Positions 2,326 to 38,136 of a stretch of 64,000 bases of DNA are shown one piece after another (within the stretch, counting starts at the first letter, position 1; each line of letters opens with the position of its first letter). Made by a program: the position numbers and the translations under genes. The notes below the pieces were generated by a model. That model worked only from the letters and a program-made list of their open reading frames with translations. It ran no database searches and was not told the origin of the DNA. The DNA comes from Megamonas hypermegale (GTDB lineage Bacteria > Bacillota > Negativicutes > Selenomonadales > Selenomonadaceae): positions 1,674,001 through 1,738,000 of the forward strand of contig NZ_LT906446.1 of the NCBI RefSeq assembly GCF_900187035.1. Reading direction: 5' to 3'.

Positions 2326-2329
2326 CTTA

Positions 2330-2447
2330 ACCGGCAACTTCCTATCCTCCCAGCACGTTTCCATGCAAGTACTTTCGGCCTCTAAATGCTTAACTACTGT
2401 GTTCGGTATGGATACAGGTGGTTCCATTTAGGCATCATCACCGGATA
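2330..2447 (-). rRNA. rrf: 5S ribosomal RNA
   Basis: About 117 nt on the minus strand, beginning with TCCGGTGATGATG and ending GTTGCCGG, so the two ends pair. The internal segments CACCTGTATCCATACCGAACAC and AGTAGTTAAGC are characteristic of 5S rRNA. It is the last gene of the operon, about 70 bases after the 23S gene. The ends are approximate. Confidence 0.93.
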
Positions 2448-2516
2448 TTCTTTTTTCTGAGGTCTTTTGTTCCCTCAAAACTTCACAGAAGAATTTCTTG
2501 CTCTACCAAGCTTTTA

Positions 2517-7218
<4,702 letters not shown>

Positions 7219-34579: not shown

Positions 34580-34626
34580 CAAAAAAGGCATTTCATTGTC
34601 ATAAATCATACAATGAAACGCCTTTG
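34580..34626 (-). promoter_or_regulatory. Leader terminator (attenuator) of the amino acid ABC operon
   Basis: AAAGGCGTTTCATTGT and ACAATGAAATGCCTTTTTT form a long stem with a T6 tail, only about 30 bases before the first gene and after its promoter. Transcription must therefore read through it to express the operon. The controlling signal is not recognised: I see no T-box, lysine, glycine or glutamine riboswitch consensus. Confidence 0.65.
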
Positions 34627-34757
34627 TTTCTAATTTAATATTAAATTTATTATATTCGCTAACTCTTAAAAACAAGCATCTTCGTTTTCTGTCAAAAAAA
34701 AGAAATTCTATTCACAATGTAACAGTTTAACGAAAATTTATCCTCTAAGAATAAACT

Positions 34758-34790
34758 TAGTATAATTAACTTTAATTCGATTGTCAAGTT
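34758..34790 (-). promoter_or_regulatory. Promoter of the amino acid ABC operon
   Basis: TTGACA, 17-bp spacer, TATACT on the minus strand, lying about 210-230 bases ahead of the first gene. Confidence 0.7.
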
Positions 34791-34817
34791 GTAACTATTT
34801 CAAAATGTATTTATAAA

Positions 34818-35144
34818 TTATAAATCCTTTAAGCTGCGAATACCATTTTTAACATAATCTACAGGACGACTCCAATCTACATGTACAGCAGTTGTTTCCC
34901 ATAAACGAGTCAAAGCCAATTCTAAGCTATCTACATTTTCTAATGGTTTAATCGTAACCGTAGTAAAATCATGTAATGTTTCATGCGGTATCTGTATTGT
35001 CAAATCTGTGTGTAAAAAATCATCAACACGTTTTTTAGCTTCTTCATTTGCAAGCACAATGTTAACCATTTTCGTATTTTCATCATATTCTAAATAACCC
35101 AAATCACTACGACATGAAATGGCTACACTATATTTATTTTCCAT
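34818..35144 (-). CDS. Small protein of unknown function
   Basis: 108 residues, soluble and acidic, no signal peptide. Begins MENKYSVAISCRSDLGYLEYDE. AAGGGA precedes the start. It is a lone gene between the ABC operon promoter and the candidate 6S-like RNA. The composition looks like a real alpha/beta protein. No family recognised. Confidence 0.65.
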   Translation of the reverse strand: MENKYSVAISCRSDLGYLEYDENTKMVNIVLANEEAKKRVDDFLHTDLTIQIPHETLHDFTTVTIKPLENVDSLELALTRLWETTAVHVDWSRPVDYVKNGIRSLKDL

Positions 35145-35254
35145 AAAATAATCCCTTCTTTGAAATCAAATAGCATTATACTTATTTTAACTGAGGATAT
35201 CATTATCTGCAAGTTATTTTAGAGTTACTTTCAAATTCAATATTTGTCAATACC

Positions 35255-35283
35255 TTGCATAGATTTTATCTTTATGATATTAT
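35255..35283 (+). promoter_or_regulatory. Promoter of the candidate structured RNA
   Basis: TTGCAT at 35255-35260, 17-bp spacer, TATTAT at 35278-35283, followed by a region with no open frame but strong pairing. Confidence 0.5.
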
Positions 35284-35289
35284 AATATC

Positions 35290-35530
35290 AGTTGATAACG
35301 GATTATGCCTGCAATGTGCGTAAGTCTTTCATTATTGTCTAACCTTACTCTTTTTTAAAACGGGAATCTGGCAGTGATTTTAGGGATGTTGAATCGTCTT
35401 TGAACGAATAGCAAAACTAAAATCCAGGATACCCACCTGCCATCGCAGGTCTAGGCATATTAAAGATAACGGCATTATGGGCATATTAAAGAAGCATTGT
35501 TTTACTATATAGTAAGACAATGCTTTTTTA
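35290..35530 (+). ncRNA. Candidate 6S-like structured RNA
   Basis: Seen: AUGCCU (35305-35310) pairs with AGGCAU (35453-35458) as a closing stem. A rod forms inside from GGGAATCTGG...GATTTTAG (35362-35383) and CTAAAATC-CAG..ACCC (35417-35433), capped by TCGT/ACGA. Between closing stem and rod is a large bubble whose 3' side carries a small hairpin ACCTGC-GATG-GCAGGT. A promoter lies upstream and a terminator at 35490-35528. Known: 6S RNA has exactly this layout (closing stem, central bubble, terminal rod) and mimics an open promoter for RNA polymerase. The identification is inferred. Confidence 0.5.
35488..35530 (+). terminator. Terminator of the candidate RNA
   Basis: AAGCATTGTTTTACTATA/TAGTAAGACAATGCTT stem followed by T6. 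Confidence 0.8.
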
Positions 35531-35750
35531 ATTTTTAGTAAAAATTGTGTAAAATATTTTACTATCTTATTGTTATAAATATAAAAAACTCTTATACTAA
35601 TTATACATATTAACAATTATTCTTATTTAGTTGCGTATTTTTAATAATTGCTTTTTATCTAATAAAGATTAACCTTTAATATGTATATAAATTTTATAAT
35701 ATTGATATTATACATAATAACTTACTTTTGTTTGAAAGGATGTGTTTTCA
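35531..35750 (+). other. Promoter region of the two-component system
   Basis: AT-rich gap between the candidate RNA terminator and the response regulator. It contains TATA-like sequences near 35690-35715 but no pair of boxes good enough to call, and no gene. Confidence 0.35.
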
Positions 35751-36446
35751 GTGAAAAAAATATACTGCGTTGAAGACGACGAAAGCGTCCGCGAATTAGT
35801 TATTTATGCACTTCAATCTTCCGGTTTTGAAGCTCATGGATTTATTAATTCTGAAGATTTTTTTCCTGCTATAAAAGAAAGTTTACCTGATTTAGTATTA
35901 TTAGATATCATGCTGCCTGGCATAAGTGGTATTGATATTTTAAATGAATTACGTAAAATGCCTCAAACGGAACATCTTCCTGTTATCATGTTAACTGCAC
36001 GTGGTAGTGAATATGATAAAATCACTGGACTTGATAGCGGTGCTGATGATTACGTAACAAAACCTTTTGGCGTTATGGAATTAATTGCCCGCATAAAAGC
36101 TGTTTTACGCCGTAGCAATAAAATCACAACAACATCTGTATCTGATAACAATGATTTAGTCGCTGGTAACGGTCTTTTAAAATTAAATTATGATTTTCAT
36201 AAAGTATATGTTAATAATGATGAAGTTGTTTTAACCTTAAAAGAATTTGAACTTCTATATTATTTGCTTAAAAATAAGAATATTGTAATCTCCCGCGATA
36301 AAATCATGGATGAAGTATGGGATTACAATTATGCTGCTGAAACTAGAACTGTAGATGTGCATATTAAAACACTACGCCATAAATTAGGCCCTGCTAGTAA
36401 ATTAATCGAAACTATACGTGGCGTTGGTTATAAAATCGTGGACTGA
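35751..36446 (+). CDS. PhoB/OmpR-family response regulator
   Basis: 231 residues from a GTG start at 35751, chosen because GAAAGGA is well placed for it. The receiver domain has the acidic pair in VEDDES and the phospho-Asp in LVLLDIMLPG near residue 51, then the Thr in MLTARG and Lys in YVTKPFG. The C-terminal winged helix is the OmpR/PhoB type (LTLKEFELLYYLLKN, VDVHIKTLRHKLG). It is paired with the histidine kinase that starts five bases after its stop. Phosphate control is plausible but no pho genes or pho boxes are nearby. Confidence 0.9.
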   Translation: MKKIYCVEDDESVRELVIYALQSSGFEAHGFINSEDFFPAIKESLPDLVLLDIMLPGISGIDILNELRKMPQTEHLPVIMLTARGSEYDKITGLDSGADDYVTKPFGVMELIARIKAVLRRSNKITTTSVSDNNDLVAGNGLLKLNYDFHKVYVNNDEVVLTLKEFELLYYLLKNKNIVISRDKIMDEVWDYNYAAETRTVDVHIKTLRHKLGPASKLIETIRGVGYKIVD

Positions 36447-36450
36447 TATT

Positions 36451-38136
36451 ATGAATATGAAAAAGAAAATTTTCCATTATATGTGCTTTCTCATCTCTCT
36501 TTCTGTAATCTGTACGTTTATACTTACACTTACACTATGTTATCCACTATTTTTCAAACATACAAAACAGGAAGTTAAAGATGAATCAGTATATATAACT
36601 TATCTTTTTAATAATAACTTAAGTGACCCTATACAATTTTTAAACGATACTCATACTCAAACACGCATAACATGGATTGATAGTGATGGCAATGTCTTAT
36701 TTGATAATAGTGCAGAAGCCACCAATATGGAAAATCATTTATTGCGTCAAGAAATTCAATCTGCATTAAGTACTGGTGTCGGCGAAGCTTATCGCATTTC
36801 CACAACGCTTGGAAGCAACACTTATTATTATGCCTTAAAATTAAATGATGGAACTATTCTCCGTCTTTCGCGCACTAATGTCAGCGCTTATGATATGCTA
36901 CAAGGTTCATTGCCAATTTTATTTGCCATGATGCTTATAATCTATGCTATTTCGCTTTTAGCGGCACGACGCATGGCTAGAAATATCATTGCTCCGATAA
37001 ACTCCATAAATCTTGAGCATCCTATAATGAATGACCTCTATGAAGAACTCAATCCGATGTTAATCCGCTTAGAAAATCAAAATGAACAAATTAGGCAACA
37101 GATGAAAACCTTAAAAAATCAACAGCGTGAATTCACTACTATAATCAATAATATTGAAGAAGGTTTAATTCTCGTCAATCATGCTTATAAAATTCTTTCT
37201 GTCAACCATAGTGCATTAGAAATTTTAAATGCTGATAAAATCAACTATATCGATAAAAACCTTTTCACTTTAGTAAATAACGATATTTTATATCAGGCTA
37301 TCCAATCCGTCATGAATGGTGAACGACAAGAATTTTATTTTCCAATGGGTGAAAAAACGTATCAGATTATAGCCAGTCCTGTAACAAAACGCGATAAGAT
37401 TAAAGGTGCTTTAATTTTATTTGTCGATATCACAGAAAAACGTATGGCTGAAAAAATGCGTCAAGAATTTTCCGCAAATGTTTCTCATGAATTAAAAACA
37501 CCTCTTACATCTATTTCTGGTTTTGCTGAACTTTTGCAAAACAATATGGTTAGACCAAATGATGTACCACTATTTGCAGGAAAAATTTACAAAGAAGCAC
37601 AACGCTTAATTAATTTGGTACAAGATATAATAAAGGTTTCTCAATTAGATGAAAAAAATAGTTCCTTTATGAAAGAACCGATAAATTTATCAGCTATTTG
37701 TAAACAAACTATTTTATACCTAAGCGATAAAGCATTAAAGAAACAAGTTAAGCTCAATTTTACACCTACATCTGGCTGTGAAATCTCAGCCGTTCGTCAA
37801 TTAATTGATGAGCTTGTTTATAACTTAATAGAAAATGCTATAAAATACAATAAACCTAAAGGACAAGTCGATATTTTACTGAGTAAAGACTCAAATAGTG
37901 TTTCTTTATCTGTAAAAGATACTGGTATCGGCATTTCTAAAGAAGACTTGCCACATGTCTTTGAAAGATTTTATCGTGCAGATAAATCTCGTTCTCAAAT
38001 CAAAGTTGAAGGAACAGGATTGGGGCTTGCTATTGTAAAACATATAGCCGAATACCACCATGCTAAACTCAGTATTTCTAGCGAATTAGATAAAGGAACG
38101 ACTATAACAATTCAATTTCCTTTGATTAAAGATTAA
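36451..38136 (+). CDS. PhoR-type sensor histidine kinase
   Basis: 561 residues. Helix 1 is at about 6-28, an extracytoplasmic sensor region reaches to about 160, helix 2 follows (FAMMLIIYAISLLAARR), then a coiled-coil and a PAS domain (about 220-320). The HisKA box is FSANVSHELKTPLTSISGF with the phospho-His, followed by ATPase boxes: N box NLIENAIKYN, G1 KDTGIGI, F box FERFYRADKSRS and G2 GTGLGLAIVKH. Domain order matches PhoR. It is co-transcribed with the response regulator and ends with a terminator. Confidence 0.9.
   Translation: MNMKKKIFHYMCFLISLSVICTFILTLTLCYPLFFKHTKQEVKDESVYITYLFNNNLSDPIQFLNDTHTQTRITWIDSDGNVLFDNSAEATNMENHLLRQEIQSALSTGVGEAYRISTTLGSNTYYYALKLNDGTILRLSRTNVSAYDMLQGSLPILFAMMLIIYAISLLAARRMARNIIAPINSINLEHPIMNDLYEELNPMLIRLENQNEQIRQQMKTLKNQQREFTTIINNIEEGLILVNHAYKILSVNHSALEILNADKINYIDKNLFTLVNNDILYQAIQSVMNGERQEFYFPMGEKTYQIIASPVTKRDKIKGALILFVDITEKRMAEKMRQEFSANVSHELKTPLTSISGFAELLQNNMVRPNDVPLFAGKIYKEAQRLINLVQDIIKVSQLDEKNSSFMKEPINLSAICKQTILYLSDKALKKQVKLNFTPTSGCEISAVRQLIDELVYNLIENAIKYNKPKGQVDILLSKDSNSVSLSVKDTGIGISKEDLPHVFERFYRADKSRSQIKVEGTGLGLAIVKHIAEYHHAKLSISSELDKGTTITIQFPLIKD

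Follow-up and report, generated by a model that had tools for sequence, protein, structure and literature searches.

The genome of Megamonas hypermegale almost certainly carries a single-copy 6S RNA gene (ssrS) on the forward strand of the window analysed here, a continuous stretch of 64,000 nucleotides; its transcript would serve as a decoy for RNA polymerase with the housekeeping sigma factor and be released by the synthesis of a product RNA. 6S RNA is very common in bacteria, where it acts as a mimic of an open promoter and keeps RNA polymerase in check.

Results

A single full-length match to the 6S family

A scan of the whole window against all Rfam families yielded a match to RF00013 (6S / SsrS) at 35303–35487 (+), with 80.6 bits and an E-value of 2.8e-14, above the gathering score of 46.4 bits and covering model positions 1–187 of 187, which places the RNA within the family (Table 1). 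A permissive scan of 34600–36000 (E up to 1) reported no Rfam family besides RF00013, and no second 6S copy was detected in the complete 2.23-Mb genome, even at E-values up to 10. The sequence-only reading of this DNA had proposed a 6S-like RNA, naming an Infernal search with RF00013 as the check and a better 6S match elsewhere in the genome as grounds for abandoning the idea; the proposal proved correct, with a score far above the gathering score over the entire model and a match that is the only one genome-wide. The Rfam scan also located a TPP riboswitch (RF00059, 43524–43620 (+), 73.9 bits) and a complete rRNA operon (16S, 23S, 5S) at 2329–7218 (−) in the window.

Table 1. Features of the 6S RNA locus, in window coordinates.
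Feature	Position	Strand	Basis
Conserved element upstream of and overlapping the −35	35244..35258	+	TTGTCAATACCTTGC in window, TTGTCAAGNCTTG in relatives
6S promoter	35255..35283	+	Sequence; CTTG-17-TG spacing in relatives
6S RNA (ssrS), conserved core	35303..35487	+	RF00013 match and covariation
Closing stem, 5′ strand	35304..35332	+	Pairs with 35459–35485; fold, helix 1 paired in 97.2% of cells
Predicted product-RNA template	35335..35348	+	Putative pRNA 5′-GUAAGGUUAGACAA, first nucleotide opposite C35348
Helix P2 beside the bubble, 5′ strand	35336..35341	+	Pairs with 35452–35457; helix 2, 92.4% paired
Central bubble, 5′ strand	35342..35361	+	Unpaired in single-sequence and consensus folds
Apical (internal) stem and loop	35362..35434	+	Fold; helices 3–6, compensatory changes in 15/18 pairs
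Small hairpin, 3′ strand of central bubble	35435..35450	+	Fold; helix 7 paired in 98.9% of cells
Intrinsic terminator	35486..35531	+	20-pair stem with T tail

The 6S architecture is supported by covariation

Folding of positions 35290–35530 gave −74.8 kcal/mol (z −5.2), and folding of 35295–35490, which excludes the terminator, gave −52.2 kcal/mol (z −3.05); in neither case was any of 200 shuffled sequences as stable. The predicted fold consists of a closing stem, an open 5′ bubble strand, a hairpin in the 3′ bubble strand (ACCUGC-CAUC-GCAGGU) and an apical rod. An alignment of 36 members of the same family (Selenomonadaceae) produced a consensus of 41 pairs, made up of the closing stem, P2, an open bubble, the 3′ bubble hairpin and the apical stem. 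These pairs are formed in 95.7% of alignment cells; for 21 of the 41, both partners have changed, and none of 500 shuffled alignments reached the real one on any of five measures. When the pairing partner was moved by one to three columns, pairing stood at only 31–43%, a control that is somewhat favourable, as the consensus structure was derived from the tested alignment; the extent of the covariation is not accounted for by this circularity. As read from the aligned sequences, the closing stem, the central bubble with its 3′ hairpin and the apical rod are evolutionarily supported, and a closing stem, large bubble and apical stem with covariation behind them are marks of a 6S RNA. The arms of the 3′ bubble hairpin (ACCTGC/GCAGGT) are nearly invariant in the family alignment, and covariation therefore says little about this element.

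A predicted transcription unit of its own

Judged by sequence alone, the RNA is an independent transcription unit of about 200 nt between a promoter and a terminator. A weak −35 (TTGCAT, 35255–35260) is followed, after a 17-nt spacer, by the −10 TATTAT at 35278–35283, and a TG at 35275–35276 makes this an extended −10 (TG-A-TATTAT, 35275–35283); the CTTG-17-TG arrangement with its extended −10 is kept in 60 of 66 relatives. Because the −35 is weak, a simple consensus promoter scan missed this promoter, which is absent from its list. Transcription would start near 35290, a predicted 5′ end 13 nt upstream of the start of the Rfam match; the 5′ end may be trimmed, or the start may lie at a somewhat different position. 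At the other end, three overlapping terminator-like matches were observed against 0.2 expected, describing a strong hairpin from about 35486 to 35531. The region contains no forward ORF of at least 60 aa; a TTG ORF of 78 aa overlaps it on the opposite strand (35380–35616), for which no support was found. The sequence-only reading was sound in these respects, having placed a promoter and a terminator around about 200 bases with no reading frame between them, and the architecture that it drew (closing stem, large bubble with a small 3′ hairpin, terminal rod) is present in the fold and backed by covariation.

Predicted mechanism and product RNA

Expectations for polymerase binding, the product RNA and growth-phase behaviour are drawn from the 6S family, in which the housekeeping-sigma holoenzyme is held by a bubble that mimics an open promoter (PMC8876501), and in which a short product RNA transcribed from the 5′ bubble strand opens helix P2 and brings about release (PMC8876501). 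An RNA made from its own promoter, running from about 35290 to the terminator, would present a rod whose open central bubble imitates an open promoter and occupies housekeeping-sigma RNA polymerase, damping transcription under nutrient shortage. Once nucleotides are back, the 5′ bubble strand would serve the polymerase as template for a short product RNA beginning with a G, and helix P2 would open upon this synthesis, releasing the 6S RNA. A housekeeping sigma is encoded in the genome (RpoD_Cterm, 410.7 bits), so that the expected target is available, with binding itself a prediction by analogy.

The sequence GUCUAACC of P2 and the 5′ bubble, with KAC after it (UUAC in the window), is a nearly invariant block whose position matches that of the template. 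From this conserved block and the mechanism of 6S-1 (PMC8876501) we infer a start opposite C35348, which would give a product RNA beginning 5′-GUAAGGUUAGACAA. When the template was blocked in the folding, P2 opened and no new release helix appeared. Co-folding with the 14-mer weakly suggested that the distal part of the 5′ bubble pairs, in a short helix, with an AAAGA located beyond P2.

Nothing distinguishes the RNA from RF00013 6S, with which it shares the full-length match, closing stem, central bubble, apical rod and own promoter and terminator, the Megamonas RNA being an AU-rich member. The overall rod and bubble are also those of Escherichia coli 6S, and one common model matches both; however, the 3′ bubble hairpin of E. 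coli 6S has 9 bp and arises when the RNA is released (PMC8876501), whereas the prediction here has a 6-bp hairpin present in the free RNA from the outset. Bacillus subtilis 6S-1 likewise has a small hairpin that is preformed in its 3′ bubble strand (PMC8876501), and the Megamonas RNA appears to resemble 6S-1 more closely than E. coli 6S in this predicted feature. The start with G that is predicted for the product RNA is a further likeness, GTP having been reported to initiate on B. subtilis 6S-1. In contrast to 6S-1, a bubble-collapse helix is not clearly predicted here, and a single copy stands against the 6S-1 and 6S-2 of B. subtilis.

With the housekeeping-sigma target predicted by analogy, the RNA could in principle act like Ms1, which has a 6S-like shape and a structural relationship to 6S (PMC9130861) and whose partner is the sigma-free polymerase core and not the holoenzyme. 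We regard this as extremely improbable: Ms1 has been described from Actinobacteria, whereas the Megamonas region scores well above the 6S threshold, matches RF00013 and no other Rfam family, and belongs to a genome with a housekeeping sigma gene.

Conservation in related genomes

The 6S RNA is widespread among the relatives: it was detected in 98 of the 101 genomes from the same bacterial family and in 119 of the 120 from the class, and no family genome searched had more than one match; such orthologues, usually single-copy, are a further mark of a 6S RNA. Two to four 6S matches occur in some more distant relatives, in some cases paired in tandem within a few hundred bases of each other (G105:C1:2042624–2043164). 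The score of 80.6 bits is exceeded by many relatives that belong to the class but to another family, with values reaching 115 bits, as it might be if the gene were a decayed, non-functional 6S copy. The chance of this is very slim, since the score is among the best within its own family, the gene is the sole 6S copy in the complete genome, and its promoter, terminator, stems and conserved bubble motifs are all retained.

Neighbouring genes and a conserved upstream element

The ssrS gene has PhoB/PhoR-like two-component genes downstream, on the same strand (response-regulator/kinase operon, 35742–38136). That the RNA is a different structured RNA, such as a leader of this operon, has next to no probability, and the leader was rejected: a strong terminator lies between, the two-component genes adjoin the RNA only within the genus, whereas conservation of the RNA extends across the family and the class, and the RF00013 match speaks against it.

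On the 5′ side, a divergent gene (34818–35144 (−)) encodes a protein of 108 aa. It adjoins 6S in 44 of 67 family loci, always divergent and on the 6S 5′ side, the available stretch being too short to tell in several of the remaining loci. Of 120 class genomes, 98 have the gene, which outside the family is usually located elsewhere. The protein had no Pfam, NCBIfam or PDB-sequence match, and a comparison of its AlphaFold model, which is confident (pLDDT 89.5), with PDB folds gave no match at an E-value of 0.001 or lower.

The conserved element at the −35 reads TTGTCAATACCTTG in the window, and its exact family form, TTGTCAAGNCTTG, occurs in 51 of 66 upstream regions, at the same place in loci L002–L147. 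Family genomes mostly hold one or two occurrences, most of them at 6S, and the element is rare elsewhere; with one or two copies in most family genomes, chiefly at 6S, it was rejected as a general promoter motif. Dedicated control of the 6S gene in this family, through TTGTCAAGNCTTG at the −35 with the divergent 108-aa gene as a possible partner or regulator, seems unlikely to us, and the promoter element and the neighbouring gene are minor leads.

Discussion

The Megamonas 6S gene is an ordinary member of an RNA kind that is already known, not a new one, and knowledge of 6S RNA is unchanged by its identification. Any Rfam-based annotation would report ssrS here, and we found little published work on 6S in this bacterial group in the open literature. 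The analysis places ssrS, a global regulator, correctly in the genome, and this is of use for its annotation.
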